Part shown: in pieces, positions 8,961 to 32,627 of the stretch | Position numbering within the stretch: position 1 is the first letter of the stretch | Layout: every line of letters starts with the position of its first letter | NCBI GenBank assembly: GCA_950295325.1 | Contig: OX485806.1 | Coordinates: 11,408,001-11,472,000, forward strand | DNA: 64,000 nucleotides | Reading direction: 5' to 3' | Source of the DNA: Polytrichum commune | Taxonomy: Eukaryota; Streptophyta; Polytrichopsida; Polytrichales; Polytrichaceae | Made by a program: the position numbers and the translations under genes | The notes under the pieces: generated by a model | Told to the model about the DNA's origin: nothing | Databases searched by the model: none | What the model saw: the letters and a program-made list of their open reading frames with translations, nothing else

Positions 8961-8968
8961 GGATTCCG

Positions 8969-9655
8969 TCAGCCGCCTGAATTATACGACGAAGAATTCG
9001 AATACGATGAAGTAGATTGTCTTGCATTTGTGTGCATGGCGTACGAACGCTCCAACTCTATGGATGCACTGGACCGCATAGGTTTAGGGTTGGACGCAAC
9101 CAGCAATGCGCCACACCAAGAAACACATGTGTTAGTTTGAGGGGGATGACCCAAACATGTCACACGCTCTTTTTTAGTGCAAAACGATTGTAATACATGG
9201 TTAAGCCATGTGTGGGGGGTCACCTTGGCACGGGGGGCGCTCGCGTCCGAGTTGGCGAGGAGGGGCAAGGCGTCATGCAAAGGAATAGGAAGGGTTCCAC
9301 TCTTTGTAGGCCGACCGTCCATCCGTAGCCGCCGTTGAGGTGTAATATTGCCGCCGGGCCGAGAGGGGGACTCTTGGACGCATTTGCGATCTATGCCCTT
9401 GAGCGGCGACGGAGACGAAGATTGTCGGAAGATTTGCTTGGGTGGGGGGCTATCGACGACGCCGGCATCAAGGGGCTCCTTGGAGTAGTCGATGGAGGAC
9501 GCAGCATCGTAGACGGTCTCGTAAAAGAAGCTCCCCAAGTTTGATTCACTGACGACCTCAAGGGAGGGCTCCAAATGCTGATGCCAAAATAAAAACAGAC
9601 AAAACCCAAGGGAAGGGGAAAAAAGGGGGGAGCATGTGAAAATCGATATACATTT
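8969..9655 (-). CDS. Ser/Pro-rich ORF of unknown function, probably a 3' exon
   Basis: A minus-strand frame is open for about 229 codons, far longer than expected by chance here, but it has no convincing ATG at its upstream end. A pyrimidine-rich tract ending '..ttggcatcag' near 9577 could be a splice acceptor, so it may be an internal or last exon. The product is Ser-, Pro- and Arg-rich: a Pro/Ser block lies near residues 68-85 and a Ser/Asn-rich tail (SSYSNSSSYNSGG) closes it. No domain is recognised. It lies downstream of the FCP1-like exon on the same strand, separated by the M1 MITE, so it could be the 3' part of that gene or a separate one. Confidence 0.4.
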   Translation of the reverse strand, partial: KCISIFTCSPLFSPSLGFCLFLFWHQHLEPSLEVVSESNLGSFFYETVYDAASSIDYSKEPLDAGVVDSPPPKQIFRQSSSPSPLKGIDRKCVQESPSRPGGNITPQRRLRMDGRPTKSGTLPIPLHDALPLLANSDASAPRAKVTPHTWLNHVLQSFCTKKERVTCLGHPPQTNTCVSWCGALLVASNPKPMRSSASIELERSYAMHTNARQSTSSYSNSSSYNSGG

Positions 9656-10063
9656 CACGGGGAGGTCACTTCATTGTCAAGTTGACACCACGTGCGGACA
9701 AAGTTTGCTACCCCTATATTACATGCCATATATAATTTTAAAATTTATGATATTTTTTCTACATATACATAACCATTGATAGTATCTTTTGTATACTTTC
9801 TTGAAATTTTTAGTCATCTTTATTTTTTTAGTAATTTTTTTAGTTCAATTCTGTGTCATTCTAGTTAGAAATGGTATGTTTTATGAAAAAACAAATCATC
9901 AAATTTAGTTACCACTTTTGACTATGTTATAGGTAATGTGTATATCTACTCATGAAAAAAATTTGATAAAATTTTGACCCATTTTGGTGGTGCAACTTAC
10001 CAAAAGAAGATTTTTTTTGGTCGCACGTGGTGTTCAACTTGACAATGGAGTGATCTACCCGTG
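9656..10063. mobile_element. 408-bp hAT-like MITE (family M1), copy 1
   Basis: TIRs of about 43 bp start CACGGGKAGRTCACTYCATT and are inverted at the right end. The target duplication is a perfect ATACATTT (9648-9655 and 10064-10071). The interior is AT-rich and non-coding. A second copy of exactly the same length is at 32212-32619, about 96-97% identical by eye, so both moved recently. This copy sits between the FCP1-like exon and the Ser-rich ORF, in an intron, 3'UTR or intergenic DNA. Confidence 0.95.
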
Positions 10064-10113
10064 ATACATTTGAGGCATAATATATCACACAAAATGGCAC
10101 ACCATGTAGTATC

Positions 10114-10960
10114 TCAAATGAGTTTATTATATTTCGCGTGAGCGTACAACTCTCTGTACATATAGTCCCTCGGATCCATGTATCTTTTGCCTATCGGATT
10201 ACAACTAAGGAACCGGGGCACGGGTAGTCCGCTACCCGTGAGCGATTGCAAGTACTTAATTAGGTCTAACAAAAAACGGTCTCGGACCTTCTCGACCGTC
10301 CACGAAGGGCAAACTATGAAGTTGGAGGTCGGGTTCAAAATGTTCTTGGAAGCGTTGTCGTCCACCATTAGCGTGTTCTCACGGGTGGGGCGAACGTCGT
10401 AGGGACAACCGACTATAGGGGGGCACTGGTCCCATACGATTGGCTTCAAGACCTTAAGATATTGATTTACGGCGGGGTTGTTGGGCTTGCGGACAACCCT
10501 GCCGTTGGGGGTGTATAATGTTTTACAAGACTCCTGTCCTAAGACCAAGCAGGGGGGTTGGAGCCCCTTGAAGATGAACTCCACAACCGCCTGCGTGTTC
10601 TCGGACTTCATGGAACTCCACACGATCACCCACCATTTTGATAGGGCGACATGCAAGAAGCGCCGAAGCCACGGGCGGAGGTACACTAGCTTGCTCTTGA
10701 TGTACGCGGGGGGTCCATCGTAGTTCGCATCCTCAGGCTTGCAGAAAGGCACCGTGGGAACCATGGGACAATGCACACACTGGACGAGGACCCCGTTGAG
10801 GTCTAGCACCAGGAACCGTGTCTTCGGCGGCGGAGGTTGCGTGGGCAGGATCGGGGGGACCACCACACTGTCCTCCACGCTTCTCGGAGAGGACCGGTGG
10901 GGAGCCACGACGCTATGCTCCGACCCCTGCGGCGACGAGCGAGAGAAGGCGGCAAGGACT
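10114..10960 (-). CDS. FCP1/NIF (HAD superfamily)-like domain protein, last exon
   Basis: This frame is intact and ends in a stop at 10114. An acceptor-like '..acatatatag' lies at about 10960, so the upstream part of the open frame (to 11094) may be intron. After a Ser/Pro-rich leader comes the HAD motif I core FLVLDLNGVL, then VIVWSSM (motif II region) and TLMVDDNASKN (motif IV region, with the Asp pair). This order matches the FCP1 homology domain that dephosphorylates RNA polymerase II CTD and related proteins. The second acidic residue of the usual DxDG is Asn here (D-L-N-G), so phosphatase activity may be lost or changed; I recall this DLNG form from plant paralogues. It sits downstream of the decayed DGQHR-like gene on the same strand and could be its final exon or a neighbour. 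No stops or frameshifts are visible, unlike nearby genes. Confidence 0.65.
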
Positions 10961-11171
10961 ATATATGTTATGTCCATTTCAAGCATAAAGTAAATTTTGT
11001 GCAAACACAAGAACAATTGGACCATCGGTGGCAACAAAACTACACCAGGAGAATAAGATACATTTGAACACGGAGGCAAACATATGGGCACCAAAAATAA
11101 TAATTTTATTTGTACAATTCTCTATGTACAATTTTCTTGGGGGAATACCGCGGTGGACGAGAGCATTCACA

Positions 11172-11988
11172 CTATCCTAATTTTACATCTACAAAATTGC
11201 TTGCACGCCGCCAAGATCGAGCGTAGTTGAGTGCAGGGGAGACGAAAGGGAATCGGGGGGGGGGGGCACGTGGTGGGGGCAAGTGTCGAGCAATGGGTGG
11301 GGGGGAGGGGGGCGGTGGAGGGGTGTTTGCGTCTGTGGAGTTCCTCCTAGCTAGGGGGACACGACCACGCCAACAAGACAATGACCCAGGAAGTTTGGGT
11401 CGGTCGACCCAAACTAGGAGGGGCTCAGTGCATTACCTCGCCCTGGTCATGTTTCGACGCTGTGGAAGCCTCCACCGTCCCCGCCGCCCCACCTCTCTCG
11501 CCACCGCCTTCTCCGACGACGTCGGAGACCTTCTCCTGCAAAGGTTCAGCATCAGGCCCTTGTCCTAAACCAATCTCCGCATGTGCATCATGTATGGGTT
11601 CATCGATTTGGATAGGAGTAGAGGTATCACAAGGCCTTTGCAGGCCTTCAACATCTAACATGGCCGTGTTTCTTTGACACCCATGTTGGTCAAGGGCAGA
11701 CTGCACTGCAACGGGGTTTGGGTCGCCCGACCCAAACTCTCCTGCATCGGGAGAAGGGCCTTGGGGCACTACATGGGCGGGTGTGTTTGGGTCGGACGAC
11801 CCAAACATCCTGGGGTTGTCCTGCTGGTGAGGGGGCACCATATCTATGGGGGGCCGTAGTGGTGGAGGACCCAAGGGGGAGGAGGCTCCAGAGACGCGCC
11901 AAATGTTGGGGTCGTCTACTTGCTGGACCGCGGCGTAGGGAGCATGGTGTGTCGCAACCCTTGCTAGTCCCCTTAAAAATCTTGCCAA
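11172..11988 (-). other. GC-rich composite stretch with three 20-bp palindromes
   Basis: A minus-strand frame (11425-11988) is open for 187 codons, but its product is low-complexity (Pro/Gly/Asp-rich). Part of it simply translates the palindromes at 11717-11736 and 11786-11805. A third palindrome is at 11394-11413. A G-run of about 12 and GGGGGAGGGG tracts lie at 11255-11320. It may be the leader of the LTR element upstream or exon sequence of the FCP1 gene; I cannot decide. Confidence 0.35.
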
Positions 11989-12945
11989 TTTTTGTTTCTA
12001 GCAAAGGTTACGAGCGCTAACCCTTCGCATTTCGCGGCTAATGGTTAGCTCCTCCTACCCCGGACCTTGTAATTTATAAAAGGGGACCAACTCTCCTACT
12101 TTGCTTTCGGGACTCACCCCTTAATCAGTAACCATTCCTTAGATGTGGACTTCCATCCATGGAAGTCCAATCCTATGTTGATCATCGCATTGCCGGAGCA
12201 ACACTACAACAACCCGAACCATACTAGGCAACTATGGCCTCACAATGGGCCAAAGCCCATGGAGGCCGTGCTGTTCAGCCTCGGATGGGTGAGGCCACAC
12301 CACCTCACCCATACAAGCCTCTAGGACTCTACGCGGGGCCCCTACCCCACCGTCAACCAACCTCTTGTCTCTCCACCAAGAGTTGGGGCCAAGTAGACAT
12401 TTTCCCTTAGCCGCTGGGCCTAGAAGCCCCAGCAGCTTCAGACCATCATAACTTCCTTGTATGATGTCTGATGCTACCAAAAAACCGCTCCATCCTCATC
12501 TACGCTTCACGTAGATACCGATGGACTCCTCACTTGCCTCATTCGGGCAAGTCTTGAGGAAGTTATGCCTGTTTGAACCTTGACAGTCCTGGGAATCACT
12601 CCCAGGCACTGCTGTACCAGGGCGCTGTCCCGGGACAGCGCCCCACTCAAATGGCCATAACTCCTAGCTCACACCTCCGATTGAGGTGTTCTTGAGCATT
12701 CTAGAATCATCACGCCATGAGCTACGCATACCTCATGGCCTTACCCTTGTGCCTCCTAGTCTCTGTGGGTGGGAGGCGTTCCCAACGCCCGGGGCCCTCA
12801 CCCACACTAGGATCACTTGGGCCCTCTCACCAACGGCGCCACAAGTCCCGGGTGTGACTTTGGGGTCCCCCTTGTGCCCATGGTGTTTTGGGCACTCCTC
12901 ATGGAGAGGTGCGCAACATGGTGTGGCCGCATCATGTGCTGGAAG
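11905..12945 (-). mobile_element. Probable Ty3/gypsy-type LTR with primer-binding-like site
   Basis: On the minus strand this stretch reads like a plant gypsy LTR. It contains 'gttatggccattt' phrases, a 24-bp perfect palindrome at 12620-12643 and a TATA-like 'ttttataaatt' near 12075. The LTR would end '..cccaaca' near 11905, followed directly by 'tttggcgcgtctctgg', which resembles the tRNA-Asp-type primer-binding site of Tat/Athila elements. It begins where the third exon of the decayed gene loses sense. No second LTR is visible, so it is a solo or truncated copy. Limits are approximate. Confidence 0.45.
12620..12643. repeat. 24-bp perfect palindrome
   Basis: GGGCGCTGTCCC followed at once by its exact inverse, with no spacer. 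It lies within the putative LTR, so it may be part of LTR regulatory sequence or RNA structure. Confidence 0.95.
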
Positions 12946-13894
12946 CTGAAGGACCCTTGCGGCAAAGGGTGCTGAGGGATGTTTTGCGCAGGAAGCCGGG
13001 GGGCAAGTGCGGAAACGAGCTGGAGGGAGCCACCACCAATCCTTGCGCCCACATTCCTTGTATGACTTGCGATATCAAGTCGGCATTGGATGGAGGTTGG
13101 GCCATCGCCCTTTGCCGTTCCTGCTCCAAGAGGAGAGCCCTCAACTCTGCAACCTCGTTTCGCACTGACGGTTCTTCTGCGGCAGCTTTTTGCAGACGGA
13201 TGCGTTGCTCCTCGTCCCTCCGCATCTTCTCGTTAGTCTCCTCCACAGTTAGGACTTCGGGTTTTACCCTACCCATGCCTGTGAACGCTGTCGGGGAGGG
13301 GGGATCCGACCTAAGCCATTTGGCGAGCTCAATGTCGTCTTCGTCCTCGTTGCTTATGGCGATGGTCTCCTCCACTGCGTAGTCACCATAGAGTTTCTTC
13401 CCTTTTAACCTCCTCCTCTCCCTGAACGTGGCAGTTGTGTCCCTAGAGTACATGTCCCTAGCATCGTCCACCGTGAGGACGGGCACCAACTTACTTTGCG
13501 GGGTTGCCACCCGCATAGCTTTCTTCCGTTGGGGGGCTTCGGATTCCTGCGTGTAACTCGTTGCTCCTTCTTCGACCTCCCCTTCGGCCTTCTGGTCCTC
13601 TTGTTCCTCTTCTTCTTCATCCTCCTCCGCCTCGTCAACTGGCTGACGAGATGAGGTGCCGGGATGCAACCCGACGAGTGGTTCGGGTGCTCCAACCGGC
13701 GCCCTCATGACAAATTCTTCTGGATTTATACGCCTCGCCATATCCATTGGATTTTCACCCCCCTTTACGATCTCCTCGATGTAGCTCCCCGGGATCCAAT
13801 CAAGGATGTCCATCTTCTTTGCTAGGGTTTTTTGGGTTTTGTAAAATTGAAAATCAATATCCTCTATATAGGAGTAGACGTTCAAACCCAACAT
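12946..13894 (-). pseudogene. Decayed DGQHR-like gene, exon 3 (acidic/coiled-coil region)
   Basis: The exon starts after an acceptor '..ggaatgtgtag' at 13895 in phase 0 and stays open to about 12946, where LTR-like sequence begins. The product has an acidic block (EEDEEEEEQEDQKAEGEVEEG, about residues 90-110), a Lys/Arg-rich stretch and a helical, coiled-coil-prone segment (..VRNEVAELRALLLEQERQR..) near residues 245-265. The C-terminus is replaced by inserted DNA. I do not recognise the domain; its link to exons 1-2 rests on matching splice phases and on the same strand and order. Confidence 0.6.
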
Positions 13895-14078
13895 CTACAC
13901 ATTCCAAAAAACAATTTGAATAAGAATTATGCTCAATAAATCACACCACGAAGAAGAACAAGAAACAATAAACGGAAACCAAAAACAAAAGGATTGGGTC
14001 GAGCGACCCAAACCAACACAGTGTCTAGTTTGGGTCGCTCGACCCAAACTATAAATCAACTATTTTAAAGTCACTTAC
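13895..14078 (-). other. Intron 2 of the DGQHR-like gene, carrying two palindromes
   Basis: The donor is GTAAGTGA at 14078 and the acceptor AG at 13896-13895; length is 184 nt, phase 0. It contains two palindromes, at 13993-14012 (central AG) and 14029-14048 (central CT). Confidence 0.7.
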
Positions 14079-15401
14079 CATGCCAGCATAGATAGGTTTG
14101 GAGCCCCCGAAGACATTGAAAATTGAGTCCCCTCTCCTTGTAAGCGCCCTCATGATCCGCAAGTAGAACTCCATCCGCAGCTCGTCCGAAGTATAGTTGG
14201 TGTATTTGGCCTCATCGTAGAGGCTTTTGCTGGCACCCACCCCCTCTGCAACTTGAAAAAGTTTCTCCATCTGGTTTATGGGGTGGTTGTCCACCTTCAG
14301 CAAGTTCGTTTTTTACCCAAAGTACAAACAAAGTACATTGACGACCTTTGTTTTCTTGTCTTTCAACGTCGTGTAGGCCCCCTCCGCCGGTGCAACAATG
14401 TAATGAAATTTGGAGACAGCATAATCAGGCTGTAATTTCCTCACAATCTCATATACCTGCTCCGCCCTCCTATCCTCTACTATCCACAGCCAAATGTCGA
14501 CCTCCCTGAATTTGGGACTTGCATAGTCGACGAACTTCGATAGGAAGGGCTCATAAAAGGGGGTGCTCATGGTACCCTCAAACGAACTTCCAAGGATGTT
14601 CCGGAAGTCTATCATTCCGAAGGGGAATCGATCCCTTGTATTTGTCCTTATCGCCTTACGAGCATCAACGCCAGGCCACCCCTGGATTCTTAGAGGCTCC
14701 AGGGTGACAAGGTTGAATTGCGCGTCGCCCTCAAAACTGACAATCTTCTTCTCCTTTATGAAGTTGGAGAAGACACGCACGGTATGATCTGGAAGCGCCA
14801 TGTTCTTCCCACCCTTCACCAGCTTTGACCGCAGAAAGTCTTCCCCCGTTTCCCTTATGAGAGCCACCATAGACGCACTGGTGAATTTGTATTCCACCTT
14901 GAAGGCTCTCCAGTTGGCCTCGTGGACCTCGCCATCTACAAAAATATTCATATCGGGGACTATCTTGTGTAGCTCCTGCACGATGGTGGTCTTCTTTTTC
15001 CTATTCTCCGTCCATTCCTTCATGGTATAGCATGAAGGAACGAATGATTTGGGTTTGGATAAGACTATCTTCGGGTGCGCCCAACATCTCTTACTTGTGG
15101 GCTTGACGTGCAGGATGTGCGTTGCCGCCTTCCCCATGTCTGTCTATGAAAGGCCTTGGAGTGTTCGAAAGAACTCTCTCATTAGGGATTTCAACTGCTT
15201 GAAACGCAAGGTCGCGTTGAAACGCAGGCCTGTGTCGGGATCGATTAGGTCCCCAGTCTCTTGCTTCTCGAATACGTTCTTCTATTTCAACCAGACATTA
15301 TCGGATGTTGTTATCAAATAAATTTCTCCTCGCAACTCATTGTATTGTTTTTGCTTGTGACTCGCATTATCAATAGAGGAGAACTTGTTTATCATTTGGT
15401 A
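14079..15401 (-). pseudogene. Decayed DGQHR-like gene, exon 2 with three in-frame stops
   Basis: One continuous minus-strand frame of 441 codons runs from an acceptor '..actttaag' at 15402 to a GTAAGTGA donor at 14078. It is interrupted only by TAG at 15284-15282, TAG at 15146-15144 and TAA at 14315-14313. Both ends are in phase 0, matching exons 1 and 3. Every stop can be explained by one transition (TGG to TAG, CAA to TAA). The protein contains 'GDLIDPDTGLRF' and a central block around 'LEPLRIQGWPGVDA' and 'DIWLWIVEDRRAEQVYEIV'. No domain name can be given. Stop spacing and good codon texture elsewhere indicate recent decay of a real gene. Confidence 0.7.
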
Positions 15402-15652
15402 CTTAAAGTATTGCATATGAAACATAGAAACACGTGTTAGATATGTATATGTTGTTTCCTCATTTTCTTAGACGAAAAATCATAAATAATATCTCCTATA
15501 TCAATTTGGGTCGATCAACCCAAACTATGAACCAAAAACTAGAGTTTGGGTCGGTCGACCCAAACTATGAAACACAACAAGTGTTTGGGTCAGTTGACCC
15601 AAACTATGAAACAAAACAAGTGTTTGGATCGGTCAACCCAAACCATATTCAC
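15402..15652 (-). other. Intron 1 of the DGQHR-like gene, carrying four palindromes
   Basis: The donor is GTGAATAT at 15652 and the acceptor 'ctttaag' ends at 15402; length is 251 nt, phase 0. Palindrome copies lie at 15505-15524, 15545-15564, 15584-15603 and 15623-15642, spaced about 39-40 bp. The last two carry single mismatches in the arms. Confidence 0.65.
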
Positions 15653-16570
15653 CTCCCACTTTGGATTCTTGTTCTTTGCATTCTCCCTCTCCTTGGGAGG
15701 CCTGCCGTAGAAGTCCCATACATCACGCGAGGCCATGATGTTCCGAATCCACAAAGCTTGGTATGCCCGTTTCTTGTTTCCCATGTTGAAGTAGCGGGAG
15801 ATGTCGCTGAGTCTGGTTTCGTCATCTGACCACACCACCAAGGCCTTCCACACCTTCAATTTTTTCTTCTTCTGGTAATTGGGATCATCCCACTCAGTCA
15901 TGAGTTGGATTTTCTTCAACGCTTCCACGCTGTGCTGACTGTCAATTAGCCAAAAATTGCCTTTCTGAATTGACGGCCACATATCTGGAGTGGGCATTCT
16001 TGTGTGTCCCTGCGGCATGACTACAATAGTTTGTCTATCGTCTTTGAATTGTTCGCTCACTATGTGGGCGATTATCCAATCGACGTAGGCATTTTCCTTT
16101 GCCCGAACACACTTTTTTGGTGGGGCTAGGTGGCACTGAGCAATATTGACGTCGAACTTGAAGTCCCTACCCATGAAGAAACAGTGAGAGCACTTGGTTG
16201 TGAAATTGTCCACGATTCTTTGGATCTCAGACGCATCCACTTCTTGACCGGGCTTTGGCATGCGCAGCTCTGGGGAAACTGGCTCGTCAGTCATAATTGA
16301 TACCGATTCTCTCGGCCTCTTTGAAGGAGTTGTTTGACGGCTATTTGATGGCGTGGGTGTCTCACTATCTGCCGGTGTTGTCGTAGGCGTTGTTCTTCTT
16401 GAGTTAGTGGGAACCGCCCGCGGCTTCCTCATTGTTTGAGGTCTCGACGAGCCTGCGCCTTCTTCAGTTGTAGCCTTCCTCCTCACCGGCTGTTGTGATT
16501 TGGACTTGCTCTGTTGAACCTTGTTTAATGCGTTGATTGCATGTTTGAGCTTCGTAAACCTGGTTGCCAC
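15653..16570 (-). pseudogene. Decayed DGQHR-like gene, exon 1 (DGQHR/ParB-like motif)
   Basis: An ATG at 16570 opens 306 codons ending in phase 0 at a GTGAAT donor. Residues 1-95 are Ser/Thr/Lys/Arg-rich and probably disordered or DNA-binding (repeated SRxTTP phrases). Residues 105-306 are globular. A Cys/His pair (CSHCFF) lies near 127-132 and WLIDSQHSVEALKK at 207-220, which resembles the (D)GQHR motif of the DndB/DGQHR and ParB-Srx folds with Gly replaced by Ser. LSDISRYFNMGNKK near 254-267 could be helix-turn-helix-like. This exon has no stops; the gene as a whole is broken in exon 2 and by the LTR in exon 3. The function is unknown and the motif match is by eye. Confidence 0.55.
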
Positions 16571-17934
16571 CTTCGTGTTTGAAACGCTTTCATCTATGAA
16601 GATAGACTATGGTTTAATAACATCTGGCTCAATGCATGAGTCTTTTACGTACATGGGGTCAAATGGCTCGGAGAATTGGTGCATGATACTACTATGAGTC
16701 GAGGCCACCTCCAACTAGTAGTTAAGTATATGCTAGCAAGCTCTCCCTCCATGCCTTTAGGATAATTCTAAGTGTACTTAACTAATGGTCGTTACTTACG
16801 AGGTAGAACCAAGTGTAAAACCATAGCTTCAACTAGTTAATTCCCTTTACCTTTAGGACTGCTAGAGCACTCAGGGTAGCGCCTCTAGTCTTCTAGTAAA
16901 GGAGTCCTAGTTGAATGAGAGGTTGTAAATAAAACAATAAATATGTAATACACATTACACCTAGAGCCTGTACTGACGCCACCTCCCACCCCGTCAATGT
17001 TGCCTATGTGTTTTGATCCACTGTCCCAACTTTCACCACGAAAATGATCTTGAATTGCGATGCCTTAACAACTTGGAGGGACCACGCAATGACAAGCCCG
17101 TCCTTAGGCACATATGACTCATCTTTAGGGGTTTCGTGTTCCTTCTATACCGCATCTGGTGCGAGTATGAACCATATCTATCTCCAGGTCTTTTTTGGGG
17201 GGCCATCTGCAAAAGAAACCATAGCACTGTCAGTTTCGGTTGCTCGACCCAAACTATTACAAAATTATATAAGCATGCTGATGGGTATGACTGATGCTAT
17301 GTATGTTGAGGTCACAGATTGTTAGGTTTGGGTAGATCGACCCAAACACAAGCCAAATGAAGTTTGATAATTGGCAACAATTATAAAACGTATGGAATCA
17401 GCTCATTGGTGTGACACAAATTTAGAGATAGTGGGTAAAATAATTATTCAGAAGTGCTTTGGTTATTGGCAACTTTCATATTCCTTGTAGATATAAATCT
17501 ACATCACAAAATAGATTGGTATAATAAATTTGTTTCATAAGATCTTACATAATGGGATCAATATGTATATGTTGTTTTATGGTTTCGGACGTTGGAAACA
17601 AACAGGCTTCATGGTTTGGGTCGCTCGAACCAAACCAGTTTTTTAAAATTGAAACAACAAAAATTGGTTGTAAATTATAAATACATTTCAATTAATTATA
17701 GTTCTATCAATGTTCATATTCGAATGATATACTTCTTATTATAGAATTCTTAATATAGAATGCTTATGATAGGTATAAGAAAGGCATTCTTATGAAATAG
17801 AACAATTACCTATTCTTGCAAGCTTTACAAGAAGCTTTTATTGCAAGCTGTTTTTGTAAGTTAAATCTCACAAATACTAGAGAATATGATGAATCTTAGA
17901 ACACTCAACACTATAAAGCTTATAGAGACTTTCA

Positions 17935-18335
17935 ACTTCACAAATACTAAGAATATCATATACCCTCAAGACTCACAATCTGAATCTCACAAACTCGAAA
18001 CCCTCAAGACTCTCAATCTAAATTTGACAAACTCAAACCCTCAAGACTCTCAATCTAAATCTCACAAAGTCGAAACCCTGCAGACTCTCAATCTTACAAA
18101 CTCACAACTCTCAACACTCTCACTCTCACAACCCTCAACACTCTCAATCTAAATCCTTCAACCTATGAACAGTCTCATATCCTAAACCCTCAACAATCTG
18201 TATCTCACAACCTTCAACACTCTGAAGCTTACAACCCTCAGCACTCTAAATCTAAATCCTTCAAGCTATCCACACTCTAAAGCTTATAAATCCTAAACAC
18301 TATAAATCTCACAACCCTCAACACTCTGAAACCCA
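17935..18335. repeat. Degenerate minisatellite (ctcaacactct-aatct-acaacc)
   Basis: About 15 imperfect units of 20-30 bp share the phrases 'aaccctcaacactct', 'caatctaaatc' and 'tcacaa'. Units vary in length, so this is an old array. Confidence 0.8.
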
Positions 18336-19287
18336 CAACAAAGAAAGTAATCACACACAAAATACTCAAGCTACCAACACCCTGAACTCAGAAACTACGG
18401 CGCCTGGATGTAGAAACTACACACTATGGAAACAAAAATTAAGGAGGGAGGAGGAGATTGTGCAAAGGCACACGTCGCTTCGTGGAGGCGGTGCTTCCAG
18501 TAGCGGCGCGGAGCTCACTTGGCGCGAAGAGGTGAAAAAAACCCCGAAAGTGCGACCTTTCGGGTTTTGTTGCCCTCGGGCAAAGGCCCTACAACACGGC
18601 TTTAGGGTGCCCATTGGATTAGGGCATCCGCGCAAATAGGGTTACGGGGCAACCCTAATCCCTAAACCCTTACCGCACTTCCTTTAGCGGCATTTAATTT
18701 GTTCCGAAATAGGTCCATAGCCTAAGGTATTGCACAAATTTTTTAATTTTCCAAAGTAGTTAAACTTATTGGCTTCTAAGCCGTTTAGGGACTTTAGATA
18801 AAGAACACAATTCATTTCACATTGAACTATGTCATCTTAGTTGAACATCTTTCCCAAATCCGATTTCAATGTATTGAATTGAATGGTCCTTATTAGTATG
18901 GTAACCATTTACATGGTTTGATAATATGAATTCGTACTGTAATTTCTATGATGGTTAATGTTGGAGGACAAGGCTATAGCCTATCATAGATCCCCTAATA
19001 AGTAGCATTACACTAACTCAATTACACAAGTTTATGTATTGTCAATTATTATAACATGAAATTAGGCAAAATGTATCGACACCTTGTCATAGTTTTTTGT
19101 CAAAAACAAGAAATCGATTGTTTGATTTATATCATGAAACATTAATATATTTATATGGAAGTTAACATGTAAAGTAAACACGAGAAGCATAATGATTACA
19201 AATGTAATCCCTATACCCCCATGAGTTCAACATCATATGAAGTCATTCAAGTAATGTTTTTATTGGTCAATGGTCGCTCCACATATA

Positions 19288-19328
19288 TTAGGGTTTAGGG
19301 TCTAGGGTCTAGGGTTTAGGGTCTAGGG
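19288..19328 (+). repeat. Telomere-like TTTAGGG/TCTAGGG repeats
   Basis: About six 7-bp units alternate TTTAGGG and TCTAGGG. TTTAGGG is the Arabidopsis-type plant telomere unit; this is a short interstitial patch. Confidence 0.85.
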
Positions 19329-20115
19329 TGTGTTGGGAAAGGTAAGGCATGTTCAAATAAAAACAATAAATTGGGACTTGTTGCACCACAAGCCATAAAT
19401 GATTGGCACATAGGTCAAATGACGGGGCCTTAGTGCTTGTAAATTGAAATACAAATGTATGTAGTCATGAGATTATTTTTGAACAAGGAAGTGGAATATG
19501 GTTGTGTGGACGTTTAAGGTTTAAACTCACTAGAGAGAACATGTGATGTAGTGGTCATAATCAGGTCGTCCTTAGTATGAGGAGTCTAATAACAAGGTCA
19601 TAATAGATACGATCTTTATCATGTTAATATGTGATTTGAAATATTTAAACATTATATATTAATAAAAGGTGCATTTGATTTTGTGAATGTTATGAGGACA
19701 TACATTTCCAACTTTGCATGTTTTGCTCACAAACACTGCTAAAGTTAAAATGGATTTGAGGATAGGTTCAAACATCCTTGGAAGAGTGAAGTAGAAAGTG
19801 ACATTTGTGCTTGGAATTTCATTAATGACTTCCACAAAGGTTAGTCATTGTCACACTTGCATGCTTGAGAATGGAGCACCATTACAAATGACATATTGTG
19901 GGCTTTAATAGTTTTCCTCATTTGCACAATGTCATGTTTTGCTCATCTCCCGCTCCTGAAATTTCAACAAGCTCTCTCACTTGGAGCTCTACTACAAGGT
20001 TAGAGCACGGTAACATTCAAGAGCAAGCAATCGGAACATCTATTTATGACTTTAATTTCTCCACACAACCTATATATAGAAATCACCATATTCACGCCGC
20101 ATTAGACGGCGTAAT

Positions 20116-23100
20116 TTACAGATAGATTGGGTCATCCGACCCAAACCATTCCCCACAGTGGGCAGGTACAGGAGTAAACTTAGAGCCCATCTTGCTCTAC
20201 ATAGTTTGGGTCGGTCGACCCAAACCCTTCCCCACATAGGGCATGCACTATGGTGGACTTTGAGCCCATCGCCCCCCTGTCACACAGTTTGGGTCGCTCG
20301 ACCCAAACCCTTCCCCACATGGAGTAGGTACTAGGGTACCCTCAGAGCCTATCATGCCCTACATAGTTTGGGTCGCTCGACCCAAACCTTTCTCTACATG
20401 GAGCATGTACTGGGATAGCCTCAGAGCCCATCATGCCCTACATAGTTTGGGTCGCTCGACCCAAACCTTTCCCAATATGGAGCAGGTACAGGGGTAACCT
20501 CAGAGCCCATCATGCCCTACATAATTTGGGTCGCTCGACCCAAACCCTTCCCCACATGGAGCTTGTACTCGGGTAACCTCAGAGCCCATCATGCCCTACG
20601 TAGTTTGGGTCGCTCGACCCAAACCCTTCCCCACATGGAGCAGGTACTAGGGTACCCTCAAAGCTTATAATGCCTTACGTAGTTTGGGTCGCTCGACCCA
20701 AACCCTTCCCCAGTTGGAGCATGTACTAGGGTACCCTCAGAGCTTATCATGCCTTACGTAGTTTGGGTCGCTCGACCCAAACCCTTCCCCAGTTAGAGGA
20801 GGTACTAGGGTACCCTGAGAGCTTATCATGATCTACGTAGTTTGGGTCGCTCGACCCAAACCCTTCCCCACATGGAGCAGGTAAGGGGGTAACCTCAGAG
20901 CCTATCATGCCCTACATAATTTGGGTCGCTCGAGCCAAACTCTTCCCCACATGCAGGAGGTACTAGGGTAGCCTTAGAGCCCATTATGCCCTGCATAGTT
21001 TGGGTCGCTCGATCCAAACCCTTCCCCACATGAAGGAGGTACTAGGCTAGCCTCAGAGCATATCATACCATACATAGTTTGGGTCGTTCGACCCAAATCT
21101 TTCCCCACATGGAGCATGTACTGGGGTAGCCTCAGAGCCCATCATGCCCTACATAGTTTGGGTGGCTCGATCCAAAACCTTTCCCACATGGAGCAGGTAC
21201 TAGGGTACCCTCAGAGCCTATCATGCCCTACATAACTTGGGTCGCTCGACTGACCAAAACCCTTCCCCACATGGAGCAGGTACTAGGGTATCCTCAGAGC
21301 TTATCATGCCTTACGTAGTTTGGGTCGCTCGACCCAAACCCTTCCCCAATTAGAGCAGGTACTAGGGTACCCTCAGAGCTTATCATGACCTACGTAGTTT
21401 GGGTCGCTCGACCCAAACCCTTTCCCACATGGAGCAGGTAAAGGGGTAGCCTCAGAGCCTATCATGCCCTACATAATTTGGGTTGCTCGAGCCAAACTCT
21501 TCCCCACATGCAGGAGGTACTAGGGTAGCCTTAGAGCCCATCATGCCCTACGTAGTTTGGGTCGTTCGACCCAAACCCTTGCCCACATGAAGGAAGTACT
21601 AAGCTAGCCTTAGAGCCTATCATGCCCTACATAGTTTGGGTCGCTCGACCCAAATCTTTCCCCACATGGAGCATGTATTGGGGTAGCCTCAGAGCCCATC
21701 ATGCCCTACATAGTTTGGGTCGCCCGACCCAAAACCTTCCCCACATGGAGCAGGTACTAGGGTACCCTCAGAGCCTATCATGCCCTACATAATTTGGGTC
21801 GCTCGACCGACCAAAACCCTTCCCCCACATGGAGCAGGTACTAGGGTATCCTCAGAGCTTATCATGCCTTACGTAGTTTGGGTCGCTCGACCCAAACCCT
21901 TCCCCAATTAGAGCAAGTACTAGGGTACCCTCAGAGCTTATCATGACCTACGTAGTTTGGGTCGCTCGACCCAAACCCTTTCCCACATGGAGCTGGTACT
22001 GGGGTAACCTCAAAGACCATCATGCCCTACATAATTTGGGTCGCTCGACCCAAACCCTTCCCCCCATGGAGTTTTTACTCGGGTAACCTCAGAGCCCATC
22101 ATGCCCTAAGTAGTTTGGGTCGGTCGATCCAAACCCTTTCCCACATGGAGCAGGTACTCGGGTAACCTCAGAGCCCATCATGCCCTACGTAGTTTGGGTC
22201 GCCCGACCCAAAACCTTCCCCACATGGAGCAGGTACTAGGGTACCCTCAGAGCCTATCATGCCCTACATAATTTGGGTCGCTCGACCGACCAAAACCCTT
22301 CCCCCACATGGAGCAGGTACTAGGGTATCCTCAGAGCTTATCATGCCTTACGTAGTTTGGGTCGCTCGACCCAAACCCTTCCCCAATTAGAGCAAGTACT
22401 AGGGTATCCTCAGAGCTTATCATGACCTACGTAGTTTGGGTCGCTCGACCCAAACCCTTTCCCACATGGAGCTGGTACTGGGGTAACCTCAAAGACCATC
22501 ATGCCCTACATAATTTGGGTCGCTCGACCCAAACCCTTCCCCCCATGGAGTTTTTACTCGGGTAACCTCAGAGCCCATCATGCCCTAAGTAGTTTGGGTC
22601 GGTCGATCCAAACCCTTTCCCACATGGAGCAGGTACTCGGGTAACCTCAGAGCCCATCATGCCCTACGTAGTTTGGGTCGCTCGACCCAAACCCTTCCCC
22701 ACATGGAGCAGGTACTAGGGTACCCTCAGAGCTTATCATGCCTTACGTAGTTTGGGTCGCTCGACCCAAACCCTTCCCCAGTTGGAGCAGGTACTAGGGT
22801 ACCCTCAGAATTTATCATGCCCTACGTAAATTGGGTCGCTCGACCCAAACCCTCCCCACATGGAGCAGGTACTCGGGTAACCTCAGAGCCCATCATGCCC
22901 TACGTAGTTTGGGTCGCTCGACCCAAACCCTTCCCCACATGGAGCAGGTACTAGGGTACCCTCAGAGCTTATCATGCCTTATGTAGTTTGGGTCGCTCGA
23001 CCCAAACCCTTCCCTACATGGAGCAGGTACTAGGGTACCCTGAGAGCTTATAATGCCCTACGTAGTTTGGGTCGCTCGACCCAAACCCTTCCCCACATGG

Positions 23101-23411
23101 AGCAGGTACTGGGGTAACCTCAGAGCCCATCATGCCCTACATAATTTGGGTCGCTCGACCCAAACCCTTTCCCACATGGAGCAGGTACTAGGGTACCCTC
23201 AGAGCCCATCATGCCCTACATAGTTTGGGTCGCTGGACCGAAACCCTTCCCCACATTGGGCAGATTTTGAGGATGACTTAGAGCCCTTCCTGTATAGGAG
23301 GGTTTAAGTTGGTCGACCCAAACCCCTACCCTGCAGTGGGCATATATTACATGCGATAGTTGCCCCATCCTTCCCTACAAGGTTTGGGTCGGTCGACCCA
23401 AACCCTTCCCT
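20116..23411. repeat. 79-bp satellite array centred on a 20-bp palindrome
   Basis: About 41 head-to-tail units have a period of 79 bp (successive cores at 20204, 20287, 20366, 20445, 20524). Each holds TTTGGGTCG-NN-CGACCCAAA followed by a spacer of the type 'cccttccccacatggagcaggtactagggtaccctcagagc'. The core is mostly CT-centred and well conserved; spacers drift more. Units at both ends are more diverged (20129, 23288, 23390). A higher-order duplication of about 479 bp (six units) is seen at 21712-22190 and 22191-22669 with almost no differences, showing recent unequal exchange. Confidence 0.97.
21712..22669. repeat. Higher-order duplication of six 79-bp units
   Basis: The blocks at 21712-22190 and 22191-22669 are nearly identical, including an aberrant unit 'cgctcgaccgaccaaaaccc' and a rare 'catggagtttttactcg' spacer. 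I noticed one difference (ggtaccct versus ggtatcct). An earlier relative of the aberrant unit is at about 21240. Confidence 0.9.
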
Positions 23412-24761
23412 TGATTTGGCAAGTATTGAGGACAACTTTAACCCCAACATGTTCAACAAGGTTTGGGTTGTGGAAGCACACGAACACCAAAAGTTTCCGG
23501 ATAGGTGTTTTTCAATGCCTAATCCGGTCTATCCGGATGATCCGAGTCTCGTTCAGGGATTCTGTGAAGTGCAGGATGTCAGGGACGCACTTTTCCTGCT
23601 TGAAAGTCGACCACCGGCCGGATTGGCTTTCCGGATCCGGATAATCCTTTGGAAGTCCTTATTCCGGGACTTGCCTTTCGGAATGAACCTCTATAATTAA
23701 GTCTTAATCCTACATGCATCTTTCCTCAATACCTACCTACCTACTTCCTACCTCCATTGATGATTGGGTTCATCCCGTGAAGACGTCCCTATATGGTCAG
23801 AATCCGGATTTCTCTCACAACGAGTCCGGATCGGCCTAATCTTTCCTGGCAGGTCACACAGAGAATCCGGATGGTTCTAGGAACTACAACGACAGAAAGG
23901 TTAAGATTCGACTGGCAACCTGTTAATCCGGGATAACTGGGCGATCCGTGCCACTTTCCGGATTGCCCCGCCCAAGGACTGTGAGACCTCTTCAGAAGGT
24001 CGGATGGCGTAAGTCCGGCACCTCCCGGATCTTACGCAGTCCTAACAACGGCTATCTCACATGGACGTTACCCAGACATCCGGAATAATGAGGTTTCCTT
24101 CCCACTACACTAAAAAAGGAGCCATAGTATTGTAGTCGGATCCGATCCGGGTATCCTCTCCTTTGTCCTATCCGTGCTTCCTACTCATTCATTCCCTCTA
24201 GATTCGCAACATTCTCCTAACAGTCCGTGCACAAAACAAGTCAGAATAAATGGAGAACTAGAGCTTTATTGAGTGAGAAGGGACAAAATACAACATCGGA
24301 GAAGAGAACCCTTCTCAAATTCCTTATTTAGCCTTAAGTAGAGGCTTGCAATCCCTAACTTACTGGTGGCGGCCCAGGCGGCCGCCTAGAAAACCCCAAG
24401 CGCGGAGAAATCTGGAAAAACGTCCTTCACGGAATTTCCGGATCTCGATCCGCTTTTCGCGCTGACAAAAATTTGAATTTACAGTTTTGCCAAAAACTCA
24501 AAAGGGTTATCCTTAATCCTACCTGCCTAATCATGATCTTCCTAATGCTAATATGCTTAAGTCTAAACTAGGTGGTGCAGTGCTTCTTCGAAGCCGTCCC
24601 GTCCTTGGATTGACTCGCGGGCCCGCTGACAGCGGAAGAGCCTCCTCCGGGGGTCAAAAGTCGTCGCTCTTGCAGCCTCGTAATATCCTTCTCATGTTTG
24701 GGGAGGGGGCGACCTCTTCTTCTGAATCGTCTGCTGTGGGCGGATCCTCTCCCAATCCGGA

Positions 24762-26654
24762 TCACGCTGTACCGGAAACGTGTTTCTCCTTCCGGGACCG
24801 ATGGCCAGGCGAAGGGTCACGCCCAATGGTCCCTTCCCTGTTCCGGCCACATGAGACGGAAGTCGTCCGGGGATCCCTTGCGGACATCGCGTGTGAGGGT
24901 GGAGGAGCCCACGGCTCCACTATCATGCAGTCAAGAGTAGGAACGGGCAAAACCTGCATTACCAGTGCCTTACCCCTATCCGGAGTCTTCGTCCGATCCG
25001 GCGTCCTCATCCTTTCCGGAGTTCTGGTCCTCTCCGGCGTTCGGGACCGCCCTGACGCCCTTCCCTGACCCGGACTCGGTGATTGTCCCCGTCCGGACCT
25101 GGCTGACCGTTCTGTACTCTTCCGTCGAACTAGGGATGAGCGGGGCCGTTCCGGAACAAGGGTCTTCTCTCGATCCGGAACTCTTCCGGATTCCGGTGGC
25201 TGGGAAGTTCCGGTTGGCTGACTGGGCCCTGCACCCGCCTGTGAGGCCGGAACCAGTTCCACCTCCCCAATAACCTCGTACAGAGTGCCCGTCGGAGATC
25301 CGGGTGGACCCGGATAGAGCATCCGCCTGGGGGTACCACCTGGCAGCAACTTCTGGATCTCCTTGAGTAGGTCCTTCATCGAGCGGGAGTACTTTACCAG
25401 GATAGGGAGCGTTTGTCGGGCGGAAGACGGATCCGCTTACTCCATCAGCTGGTCGTAAAGGTGTGCCTTGTTGACGATCTCTCCCGGATGGCCCACCAAC
25501 TCCCGGACCCGGCTCAACACCACGGCTTGTTCCGCTTGGTACTTCCGGATCTCCTCGTTCTTCTGGCCGAGCTCCCGGGTCATAGCGGCCACTTGTGCCG
25601 CCATCTGTGCCTTCTCCGTCTCCAGGGTCTCCACCTGTTTCCGATCCGTCCGTTTGGCCAACTCCCGGAAGATATTTCCGGGTCCACAATTGCCTAGGGC
25701 CCTGTTCACTCCCCGGGTGATGTGCTCCATCCGGAAGTACCAGTTCTGGAGCTCCGTCAACTCATCCCGGACGCGTTTAAAAGGGGCTTCCGGAAACTCA
25801 AAGGTGGAGAGGTCGATGTCCTTCCAGGGAACTTCCCGGCTGGGTCCAGCTTCATGTTGGGCTGGTGGTGAGGCGGGTTTCCGGACCTTTGGAGGGGATG
25901 AAACCGGAGGTGGTTCCGGAACCCCTGTGTCGCTGGAATCCTCTGTTCCAGTCTTCGCAACTTCGACTTCCGGACTGATCTTGTACACCACCTCATCTTC
26001 CGCTATCGTCAGCATGTCCTCCTCCTCTTCGTTGATGCAGCCGTGGTGCTGGTAGAGGTGGAGGATGTAAGGGGAAAGAAAGGAGGGTTTCCGGCCAATG
26101 TGGGGGATGGATTTCTCCACATATTCCTGAATTAATCTACCCCAATTTACAGGCTGGGCTCCGGACATGGCCCCGAACAGGGTGTTGGCCATGGTAATGC
26201 TGAGTCGCTTGGGCTTTTCCGGACTAAGGATGGGGAGAATAAATTCTATGACTCTCCTCTCTCTAGGGTTCCGGCAATTCCCGGGATGGAATCCGTCCTT
26301 AGGATCCGGGTCCGTTCTGAATTTCCCTACGTAAAAACTATCCCTGCGGCTAGCCCAGCCCTCGCCCTTTCCTTTCGGAAATCCGTAAACTCTAGCCCAT
26401 ACCTCCGGCGTCCACTTCTCCGGCTCCTGCCTCATCGTCGGAATCCACTGATTGCCTCTCTCAAACAGGAATTCCCGCAATGTGGCCTCCGCCCGGAGAT
26501 TCCAAGGCTTGGCGAGTAATCCCTCGCAACCCATTCGACTAAGGTCCTCTATGAGTTCCTTGAGCTCGGTATCTCTCTTCGGGGTGGCCGGCGATACCGG
26601 TTTCACGGGAATCGGGACCTACTCCCTCTCATCTTCCTCTCGCGCTTCCGGCAT
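24762..26654 (-). pseudogene. Gag-like / plant-transposon-type protein, frame with two stops
   Basis: One minus-strand frame of about 630 codons opens at an ATG (26654-26652) and is broken only by TAG at 26621-26619 and TAA at 25439-25437. The first domain (about residues 25-230) is globular, with phrases such as KPWNLRAEATLREFL, WTPEVWARVYGFPKGKGEGW and NPRERRVIEFILPIL. It recalls the capsid-like 'putative plant transposon protein' domain seen in many plant repeats, by memory only. A Pro/Ser linker and a coiled-coil-like region (about 300-390) follow. A basic C-terminal tail repeats RTPER/RTPDR five times (SR-like). There is no protease, RT or integrase. The second stop could be decay or, less likely, a readthrough site. 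Confidence 0.55.
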
Positions 26655-26924
26655 TTTGCTTCGCACCCTCAATCCTCTAACAATCCCCGGCTTCTTCCCT
26701 CCAGAGTTCTATTTGCCAATCACTAAGGAATCCCAACAATCCAACTGCTGGCGACTCGAAAAACAGCTCACCACTCGTTCTCTCGACAATGCCGCTCGCG
26801 CAAATGGCTCGGAGAAGGAGAGAATTCCTTTAAGTACTCTCTCCCTCTTCCTCTAACGGGTTTGGGTCCTTAACTGTTTCCGTTGCAACCGCTCCAAGTC
26901 CGTTACAACCGTCCGGGTTCCAGT

Positions 26925-26995
26925 GTAACTGTCTTCCAGTGTAACCGTCTTCCGGTGTAACCGTCTTCCGGTATAACCGTCTTCCAGTCCGGACC
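26925..26995. repeat. 16-bp minisatellite (tgtaaccgtcttccRg), four copies
   Basis: Four consecutive near-identical 16-bp units lie inside the 23.47-27.21 kb insertion, between the ATG of the gag-like frame and the right end, that is, in the 5' leader in the minus orientation. Confidence 0.85.
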
Positions 26996-27333
26996 GTTTA
27001 AAAATGGTCCCCCAGGATTAAGTTCCGGTCCAACCAAAGTGTCCGTTCTAACCATTTTAACGCGTAAGGAGGATGCGTAGAACTTTATTTCATAAAACAA
27101 CTATCCGACCCTAGGGAACCCTACTTTGAGAACAATACCAGGGTATTATCCGGATATTAATCCGGTTAGGAAGCCAATCCGGACTTCCGTGGATTTTTGG
27201 GCTCCCACATGGGTCGGTCGACCCAAACTCTAGCCCGCAGTGGGCAGGTGAAATATTTTGCTTGTTTTGCTTTTGGATCCTAAAAACTTGTGTGTTGCTT
27301 TGACAAGGCTCAATGTTCATGTGTGTAGGCACA

Positions 27334-30300
27334 ATGGATGGGTTTAGTGAAAGAGGGGATTGGTCATCTGAAGACATGGCCACTTGGCCATCTGCATCTG
27401 AGGATGAGCTAGACATTGTCGGGGAGGCTACTATGGCTGACAGTGCATATGAAGATCATTTGGATTTACCTTCGCCTTCCGTACCAAACTGTCCCATTGT
27501 TGAATGTACGGGATTTTCAAGGGCTTCGTGGGTGAATTTGGAGGTGGTACTTCTTAATGAGAGTGGAGTTGTTGTGGCGGAGGGGATTTGTCGTAACACC
27601 CATCCACAAGATTGCATTGATGAAAATCCGCTTGGCACCGAGGACGTTGGGGTTGTTATATTGGAGTCGCTCGTTCATTCCGAGGTGGATCCCACTCATA
27701 GGTTCTCCATCCGCAGGTGGCCATTGAGGAATGTCACAATTGATGGATTTAGCTTGCGTGAACATGAGCAACGACACATGCAAATCGAGAAGGAACAACA
27801 ATCAAACATGCGGCCACGCAAGGGTCAAAGAAAGTACGATACATTGGCACATCCTGCTCTGTATGCAACTGATTATAAACGTCAAAGGTTGCTCGGGGAG
27901 GAGTCCATTAGAGAAGTTGCCACAAAGGATTGTTGTGTGCATCGTTGTTGCCAATTGTTTCCAAGGGATAAATTGAAGGCCATTCGCGAGGAAATGTGGC
28001 TTGGAGATTTCCGTCTAAGATCCACAAAAAAACTTGATGTCCATAGGGCGATACATGTGAATGGGACGGGTCGCAAGGTCATCACCATTGAAAGCATATA
28101 CGTGTGTTGTAAGGCATGGTACACCATTCACGGTGTGTCAAAAACGGATTTTTATAGACAAGTTGCTTATTCCAAGGAAGGCCGCTGGTCCCGTCACCAT
28201 GGGAACGTGGGTTTAAAGAAACCTAGGGAAACAACAAAACAAGCAACGGCCACTCTAACAACCATTATTGTCCCCTTTGCCGATGCAATGCCGCACGAAA
28301 CACGCACACTCACAACCGGTGAAAAGGTTGTGGAGAAAGTTTTTCCCACAAGCACAAAATGAAAAGACATATTGTTGGACGTGAATGCAGTTGGCGAGAA
28401 GATTGGGTTGGAGCCAATTTCATTGTCAAAATTGAGTGCAATCAAGAAAAAAAACTTCAGCGAATATATTACAAAAAGACAAGGGGACAAATTTGCCCGG
28501 TGCTCTAATTGCGAGAAGTTGAAGCGCTTTTGGGATGCACACACGATGGGTACGGAATCATATGCGGCACATCAATTGAATTATTTCAAGCACGTAAACA
28601 TGCAAGAGGTACACCGTAATGATTACTACACAAATAAAGCTTTGTCCATCTCCAGGCCCTTAGAGGTTTTACAGTCATCCATGACAAAATGGACCATGCT
28701 AAAATAGCCTCCCCATGTTTTGCAAATCGAATCAAGGCAACAAATGGGTTTTTTAAGTTGTCTGTATCGATTACAAGTGAACTTCGAAACAATGTCATCA
28801 CATACCCTAAATGTTGTGGTATTTTAGTTCATGATGTACTTGAGAATATGGATTCACTCTCAATAGTTTATTTAGACATAGATATTAATCACGTTGGGTT
28901 GGCGGTGCAGGAATGATTGCACATGGACATGGTGATGTCAAGTTTGCTCACTATGATCTTGATTTGTATCTAGCGGATTCAAACCACACGATAGGGTCAT
29001 TTGCAAGGTTTTTACATGATTTAAAGAAACCGCCAGCCTATTCTTCAGGAGTGTTATTTGACAACACGGATTCAATACCTTTATATGAAGCGGTGTTGGA
29101 TAGAAAAGAAGTATGCTTGCATTCGTTGCCCGAGCCACCCACTGAACCCGTGATTGTCAAGAAGTTGCCCCCCACTTTGCGTGTCCGATTGGACAATTGT
29201 GCCAAGGACAATAAAAATAGATATGTATTTGCATATTGGTCATTGTTGGTTGCGAAAGGCATTTTTAAGGAGGTTTTTGTATCCTTCCTATTGGTAGGCC
29301 ATACGCACGATGATATTGATACATCTTTTGGGTGGTGGAGCATGAAGTTGCGGGAGGAGGATTTTCCTACAATCCCATTATTGATGAAGTCGTACATAGA
29401 TTTGAAGAACGTTCCTGTCATCCCCCATATGATCGAGGAGATGCCAGACTTCAAGGCATTTATAGAACCTTATATTCGAAGTGGAGCTCACCGATTGATC
29501 GGCCATACAAAGGCACAACAATTCCGCTTCTACATGCGTGACGATGGTATCCCGGCCATGCAATACAAGTTGTTGTGCACGAAACAAGACTGGAGCCCGC
29601 CGGAGGGTCTCCTTGTGTGGCATGCGGATGCGGATGGGAAGACCATGTTACCGGATGGAGAGCCTAGGCCTTGCAAGCCAATAGCCATGAAGAATTTCGA
29701 GGATATTTTGAAAGGTATATCAGGCTTCATACAATATTGGGAGAGTTTGAAGATAGCGGATGTTGGCGGATCATGTTGGCATCGTTATGGGAGTTGGATA
29801 CATTATTGGACACGTGTTCGTGCCGCCTTGGCAGACCTCCACCAAGATAGCCCTCATACTTTGAAGCACGGATTTTGGCCACAAACTCGTGTCGATGTAC
29901 AAGCTTCGGAGGCTTGCCTTCTGGAAAATGGAGAGGTTCGTGAGGAGTTTGATATGGACGACCATTACGTTGGGCCTGCTAGTCAACGTCCCCCACCATC
30001 TTTCCGCATTGCAGTGGATTATCATGAAGGTTATATGCTCATTTTGCGTCCTGGAGATGAGACATATGCGAAGCCAGTCTAGGTGGCAAAAGCTTTGTCT
30101 AAACCAAATTTTACAACTTCCAGCCCTTATTTTCGAAAAATACAAGTGGAGTACTACCGACCGACAATACGGAATGAAGATGTGATTCGGCATTATACAG
30201 GCTGGGATACAAACCAAAACTTTCGGTGGAAGGTGGATTCTGAGCACGGTCCATCTTGGGTAGATACAGATTTCATATTCATAGCATGGAAACCACGGAA

Positions 30301-32203: not shown

Positions 32204-32211
32204 GTTAGTAT

Positions 32212-32619: not shown

Positions 32620-32627
32620 GTTAGCAT

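Follow-up and report, generated by a model that had tools for sequence, protein, structure and literature searches.

We analysed a stretch of 64,000 nt from Polytrichum commune (OX485806.1, positions 11,408,001-11,472,000; hereafter the window), in which a 20-bp palindrome, composed of two arms and a central dinucleotide, recurs within a single copy of a DNA transposon. This copy (8478-33134) belongs to a high-copy family, here called F1, which was recognised when the window was set against three clusters of the motif on contig 1 and whose genes comprise an FCP1/NIF-like gene, a DGQHR-like gene (three recognised exons), a DUF7869 gene and a short open reading frame (ORF) (Table 1). The window contains 34 exact palindromes, compared to none in 100 shuffled versions, and 54 sites when up to three mismatches are allowed. 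Throughout the genome (408 Mb) there are 9,731 exact palindromes, and none of the reversed pattern that served as control. As derived from 304 related sites, the full motif extends over 24 bp and reads RGTTTGGGTCG-NN-CGACCCAAACY. An earlier reading of this DNA from its letters only (the sequence-only reading) had placed the motif at 11394, 11717, 11786, 13993, 14029, 15505, 15545, 15584, 15623, 17327 and 17615, and all these sites were found again with 0-3 mismatches, as were 41 sites in the satellite, for which about 41 units had been claimed. The site given as 27.21 kb was located at 27208, with two mismatches, and a site absent from that reading was found at 17234 (two mismatches), some 30 bp ahead of the point where the DGQHR gene is inferred to start.

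F1 ends in 28-bp terminal inverted repeats (TIRs). The 17-mer AACACTATATTCGTTAA, with which the 5' TIR begins, occurs with up to two mismatches 1,676 times in forward and 1,686 times in reverse orientation in the genome, compared to 99 and 111 times for the control. A perfect 4-bp target site duplication (TSD) was present in six of the seven F1 copies read with both ends (ATAA, ACTT, TATA, ATAG, ATGA and ACAT); the window copy has no perfect TSD, and the sequence read for copy B lacks the 3' end. The six other copies with both ends measure 16.4-18.1 kb (about 17 kb for the family), and the 24.7 kb of the window copy are due to later insertions. The DUF7869 gene likely encodes the F1 transposase, as suggested by acidic residues that appear conserved by eye. 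Elements of the Sola superfamily have 4-bp TSDs and a DDD transposase, and F1 resembles them in its TSD and in these acidic residues. No mention of DUF7869 was found in the literature searched. Apart from NIF and DUF7869, no Pfam family scored above cut-off in the F1 exons scanned.

Table 1. Features of the F1 copy and its palindromes (positions in the window)
Feature	Position	Strand	Remarks
F1 copy, TIR to TIR, with later insertions	8478..33134	+	24,657 bp; from TIRs and alignment to other copies
5' TIR, 28 bp, begins AACACTATATTCGTTAA	8478..8505	+	
ORF, function not assigned	9170..9610	-	Taken from copy E; matched in the other seven
FCP1/NIF-like phosphatase gene	10117..10950	-	Pfam NIF 1.3e-13; dN/dS 0.14-0.23
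Palindrome between NIF-like and DGQHR-like genes	11394..11413	.	Exact in 8/8 copies
Last DGQHR exon, distal part	11428..11958	-	Contains sites 11717 and 11786, read FGSxDPN
Insertion of another repeat in last DGQHR exon	11950..12908	.	About 960 bp; boundaries approximate
DGQHR-like last exon, proximal part	12992..13894	-	dN/dS 0.07-0.16
Two palindromes, intron 2	13993..14048	.	Period 36 bp in each of the 8 copies, with 2-5 sites
DGQHR-like exon 2	14067..15416	-	
Four palindromes, intron 1	15505..15642	.	Period 39-40 bp here, 40-57 bp in other copies; 3-7 sites per copy
DGQHR-like exon 1	15668..17222	-	Interrupted; stops in window copy
Three palindromes upstream of DGQHR start (17234, 17327, 17615)	17234..17634	.	
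Satellite, about 79-bp unit, 41 palindromes	20123..23402	.	
Stretch between satellite and DUF7869 gene	23403..27207	.	Not seen in other copies
Last site, two mismatches	27208..27227	.	About 100 bp upstream of DUF7869 gene
DUF7869 gene, two overlapping frames	27265..30343	+	Broken in window copy; Pfam DUF7869 3.6e-40
3' TIR	33107..33134	-	

The palindromes occupy largely the same places in the eight F1 copies compared. In addition to the arrays in both DGQHR introns, which the sequence-only reading had described correctly, each copy has one site between the NIF-like and DGQHR-like genes, two in the last DGQHR exon, one just upstream of the DGQHR start with 2-12 more farther upstream, and an array of 8-41 sites preceding the DUF7869 gene. 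No site with fewer than three mismatches was found in the first ~2.6 kb or the last ~3.8 kb of the copies. The exons had been thought to be free of the motif, which turned out to be wrong: sites 11717 and 11786 lie in the last DGQHR coding exon, which had been overlooked in the window because the ~960-bp insertion splits it, and all eight copies have two exact coding sites. Altogether, 16 of the 262 sites with up to two mismatches in the eight copies fall in coding segments, exactly two per copy, leaving aside seven calls in copy G in which palindrome arrays were matched via their own translation. Given that around half the length of a typical copy (8.4 of 17.0 kb for copy A) and 35% of the window copy is matched coding DNA, the exons are depleted of sites, although not empty. 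The sites are mostly found in the introns, in upstream DNA and in the array that precedes the DUF7869 gene.

To the extent that sites could be followed between copies, their arms were conserved while centre and flanks varied, in agreement with the sequence-only reading. Four orthologous sites were selected as present in all eight copies at up to three mismatches; the degenerate places 482 (seven copies) and 9596 (four copies) were omitted. In these sites 71 of 72 arm columns were invariant, as compared to one of eight columns at the centre and 135 of 320 in the flanks, indicating that the arms do not decay as fast as the flanks. The corresponding p-value for arms versus flanks was 8e-22, or 1e-19 with four diverged copies, but should serve as a guide only, as the sites were picked because every copy has them and the copies share ancestry. 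The orthologous site upstream of the DGQHR start carried an identical TTTC mismatch in all eight copies. Moreover, the two coding sites showed no change of an arm base in the eight copies, third codon positions included, which points to constraint at the level of the DNA. The spacers between neighbouring sites behaved differently from the arms. Their identity within a copy, between copies and after shuffling was 0.96, 0.65 and 0.42 for intron 2, 0.89, 0.60 and 0.47 for intron 1, 0.75, 0.55 and 0.43 for the satellite, and 0.60, 0.33 and 0.28 for the upstream sites. The spacers thus turn over around a fixed core, whereas the places of the sites in the element are kept and the lengths of the arrays vary.

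With regard to the central dinucleotide, the sequence-only reading had regarded it as free, a view that cannot be maintained. Among the 9,731 exact sites in the genome, 5,678 have a purine-pyrimidine (RY) step at the centre and only 38 a pyrimidine-purine (YR) step, the remaining 4,015 (by subtraction) being RR/YY. The 38 YR centres are all CA/TG, while TA and CG are completely missing. Locally, no YR centre was seen in 304 sites, where about 6% would be expected by arithmetic from the column composition. For 18 of the 38 YR sites a scored DGQHR match lies no more than 10 kb away, usually at 6-7 kb, as if they were derived from one old change. Decay of CpG alone is insufficient to account for the scarcity of YR steps, because TA is also absent from the exact sites. 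A protein that reads the dyad by its shape would explain this pattern.

The palindromes sampled across the genome were linked to transposon families, as the sequence-only reading had anticipated for its gene families. The first 100 listed of the 9,731 sites, none of them beyond 2.2 Mb on contig 1, comprised 81 sites in three F1 copies (38, 18 and 25) and 19 in arrays assigned by array and flanks to a second element, F2. We also examined sites with a GG/CC centre (167 in the genome), of which the first 100 listed span contigs 1-4. Of these, 53 were within 10 kb of one of the 119 scored matches to DGQHR exon 1 (82-100% identity, among 1,105 genome candidates), compared to a random expectation of 0.65 and a maximum of 3 in 200 draws. 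Among the remaining 47, we read 12 loci in the order of the list rather than at random, skipping copies A and B, which were already known, and the place C2:7221771, and all 12 matched F1 with the palindromes masked, nine of them over at least 90% of 2.4 kb and the others over 1,545, 1,177 and 241 bp. Outside this genome, one exact palindrome was found in a prokaryotic collection, on a single contig, and none in a collection of viral contigs, both of which may have omitted records of the window's own genome. The literature matches listed for the half-site string look incidental, and scans of the window for Rfam families and tRNAs found none.

F2 carries the same palindrome in a different genetic context. 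Its core was delimited at C1:2152832-2163731, although it should be underlined that F2, like the third family F3 described below, is represented by few loci and has undefined ends. The core contains a long ORF in two parts, in which Cys and His residues form a SWIM-like pattern. This ORF resembles a Mutator-like element (MULE) by eye and is apparently the transposase gene; the only Pfam hit was SWIM, with an E-value of 0.21 and thus below cut-off. The palindromes form 32-bp arrays, one located between the two parts of this ORF and a second preceding a gene with the motif FFIWDGNHR by about 300 bp. At a second F2 locus, at C1:478 kb, this array again precedes the DGNHR gene at about this distance. 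A later exon, downstream of the DGNHR exon, matched a DNA methyltransferase in PHROGs (5e-5) and, weakly, a phage adenine methyltransferase. None of 85 pattern matches to the F2 DGNHR exon could be confirmed as a viral relative. Using tblastn, no F1 gene was detected in the F2 core, the FCP1-like and DUF7869 genes included. A distant DUF7869 match (27%, 3e-20) was observed about 6.6 kb past the last exon of F2, at C1:2170306-2170923; it probably belongs to another element, and no palindrome was found within 10 kb of it on the side read. In addition, an F2 satellite of about 64 bp (L019:62-619 and L021:4579-5868) contains a second, ungapped palindrome, CCCTGTGCGTTAACGCACAGGG, and lacks the main motif.

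F3 is related to F2 by its proteins. The F3 DGNHR protein is 38-39% identical to that of F2 (42% over the matched part), and one of the three F3 loci has a part that is 48% identical to the SWIM-bearing half of the F2 transposase-like ORF. The F1/F2 palindrome was absent from all three loci at up to four mismatches. Another palindrome with the same layout is found there, GGKTTCGG-NN-CCGAAMCC, with 552 exact occurrences in the genome versus one in the control and 52 places at up to three mismatches in the F3 loci. In all three, about 290 bp separate the last palindrome from the DGNHR gene downstream of it. The DGQHR/DGNHR product, as judged by its short motif, is the one gene type that is present in F1, F2 and F3.

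Taken together, we favour, with confidence that is about evenly balanced, the interpretation that a symmetric protein encoded by the transposon recognises the palindrome, and that this protein may act on the element's own regulatory DNA in a manner similar to VANC. The binder is probably the DGQHR/DGNHR protein, the best candidate as judged only by association and a short motif. The sequence-only reading had also suggested the FCP1-like and DUF7869 proteins, which are disfavoured, and which we reject as common binder, since neither gene was detected in the core of F2, whose ends are undefined and which carries the same palindrome. A dimer of DGQHR (F1) or DGNHR (F2 and F3) would bind the palindromes and thereby coat the introns, the DNA upstream and the array that precedes the DUF7869 gene, and such coating would keep the element expressed and counter silencing by the host, as VANC does for VANDAL. 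Specificity might shift through co-divergence of protein and palindrome, and a common specificity of F1 and F2 could result from exchange of modules or from one element using the factor of the other.

We regard VANC as the closest working parallel. As described in two reports (PMC5735166, PMC10398659), VANDAL elements of Arabidopsis have short VANC target motifs in tandem repeats in introns, upstream and intergenic regions, the arrays turn over around the core motif and differ between copies, and related families differ in motif; the VANC21 motif, YAGTATTAY, is 9 bp long and not palindromic. F1 likewise has motif arrays that vary between copies in the non-coding DNA of the element, and the related families F2 and F3 use different motifs. 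In contrast to VANDAL, the site described here is a 24-bp palindrome of another sequence that also occurs twice in coding DNA, and it is found in two elements that have no detectable proteins in common. The parallel drawn by the sequence-only reading is supported by the distribution of the sites over introns, upstream DNA and the array preceding DUF7869; its motif-free exons and free centre are not supported. With regard to the protein, the closest parallel for F2 seems to be found in giant transposons of algae, whose accessory genes fuse a ParB-like domain with an N4/N6 methyltransferase (PMC12477816). F2 similarly pairs DGNHR and methyltransferase-like exons, and F1, like those elements, is a large DNA transposon with an accessory gene. 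The passages of that report at hand name no binding site, whereas candidate sites are present here, and no methyltransferase was recognised in the F1 exons scanned.

Several observations weigh against a transposon-encoded binder of this kind. The F1 and F2 proteins gave an hhalign probability below 1% and no tblastn match, and the two elements share the site nonetheless. The proteins of F2 and F3 are homologous and yet their sites differ, the opposite of F1 and F2, which is not the pattern of simple co-divergence. Searches with DGQHR/DGNHR against Pfam, NCBIfam, PHROGs and the Protein Data Bank (PDB) produced weak, unrelated hits only; the likeness to ParB consists of the DGNHR/DGQH motif as read by eye, without a profile match; and AlphaFold gave no usable fold for F1 exon 1 or the F2 DGNHR exon (mean predicted local distance difference test scores of 32 and 36). 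Furthermore, the centre in F3 is nearly fixed, being GA in 49 of 51 places tallied, and the F3 sites are situated in satellites (213-bp unit in one locus) in which the flanks are conserved as well. TA, a YR step, was the centre in one of these 51 places and in two of 50 listed genome places, and the YR rule can therefore not be extended to F3.

For these reasons, namely that no homology between the F1 and F2 proteins could be demonstrated and no fold was predicted, a host factor stays a serious rival, even if we hold it to be clearly the less probable. According to this explanation, a DNA-binding protein of the host recognises the palindrome, and unrelated transposons have gained sites for transcription or for tethering to chromatin, which would account for a 24-bp site in two elements without detectable shared proteins. 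However, all sampled sites, which are part of the 9,731, were in transposons (the first 100 listed and 12 of 12 loci) with no host target seen, and in F3 a diverged copy of the F2 gene is accompanied by a different palindrome.

A bolder form of the transposon-encoded binder, which we offer tentatively and consider rather unlikely, is self-recognition resembling partition. In bacteria, the ParB protein acts at palindromic parS sites, and here palindromes lie close to the DGNHR/DGQH gene in all three families (upstream sites in F1, arrays in F2 and F3). A ParB/DGQHR-type dimer would load at the palindromes, read the dyad by shape (excluding YR steps in F1 and F2), spread over the element and keep it open, while unrelated elements would share or steal sites and sister families would switch. 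In contrast to ParB-parS, there are tens of sites per element, the ParB domain is without profile support, and a CTP-binding motif and a helix-turn-helix are undemonstrated.

It appears improbable that the sites serve transposition in cis, as sites of a transposase, a resolvase or synapsis. The geometry, two arms around a centre of 2 bp, is reminiscent of a recombinase core and the family has evidently moved, as judged by its TSDs, but the terminal regions of the copies are devoid of sites with fewer than three mismatches, as described above, and the centre varies among neighbouring sites, which would be unusual for a strand-exchange core. Two internally deleted F1 copies (L054 and L055) have both TIRs and 4-bp TSDs (ATGT and CACT) with only a degenerate site of the 482 type. 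Their deletion junctions were each seen only at their own locus among 40 scored hits (813 and 776 candidates), and the deletion may thus postdate insertion. Equally doubtful is the proposal that the DNA methyltransferase of the transposon itself modifies these sites or reads them as a mark, in place of an anti-silencing factor acting there: F1 has the same sites and no methyltransferase recognised in the exons scanned, and 24 bp is long for the site of such an enzyme. What speaks for it is the methyltransferase-like exon downstream of the DGNHR exon in F2, together with the fusions reported in algal transposons (PMC12477816). A functionless satellite seed, spread by slippage and unequal exchange, is very improbable and can be rejected as the only origin, since isolated orthologous sites hold both arms while their flanks diverge, the same site occurs in an element otherwise without detectable similarity and YR centres are nearly absent, even though most sites are in tandem arrays.

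If the palindromes are indeed bound by a transposon-encoded dimer, self-recognition of the VANC kind would have arisen a second time in transposons, by a protein class otherwise known from bacteria and with one specificity in two apparently unrelated elements. The system would offer a clear palindrome and sites in the thousands for statistics. It would also suggest what kind of target the algal ParB-methyltransferase accessory genes may have, and could possibly provide a sequence-specific tool to open silenced chromatin.

As to the history of F1, DGQHR exon 1 evolves under purifying selection, as judged by its nonsynonymous (dN) and synonymous (dS) divergence: among the other copies dS was mostly saturated and dN was 0.09-0.14. 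For the distal part of the last DGQHR exon, dN/dS values were 0.35-0.50 and the frame was free of stops in each of seven copies; copy C was omitted as its match is in two pieces. Many of the genomic matches to DGQHR exon 1 have frames open over about 500 residues, others having stops, and stretches of about 100 bp of F1 are identical at many places in the genome; along with the high identity of the exon 1 matches, this points to a recent spread of F1. Between copies E (C1:28958577-28975442) and A (C1:2112817-2129768), dS was 2.25 for DGQHR exon 1, 0.64 for NIF and 0.28 for the second DUF7869 part. Such uneven values along the copies suggest modules of differing history, likely by recombination between F1 lineages, and exchange of this kind could have carried the palindrome between families. 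Finally, the stretch preceding the last site of the window contains long reverse-strand ORFs (24762-26618) that look gag-like by eye, with no Pfam family above cut-off, and the insertion in the last DGQHR exon, which overlaps the exon match by a few bases, is missing in copy A and has similar sequence at L020:4612-5501.

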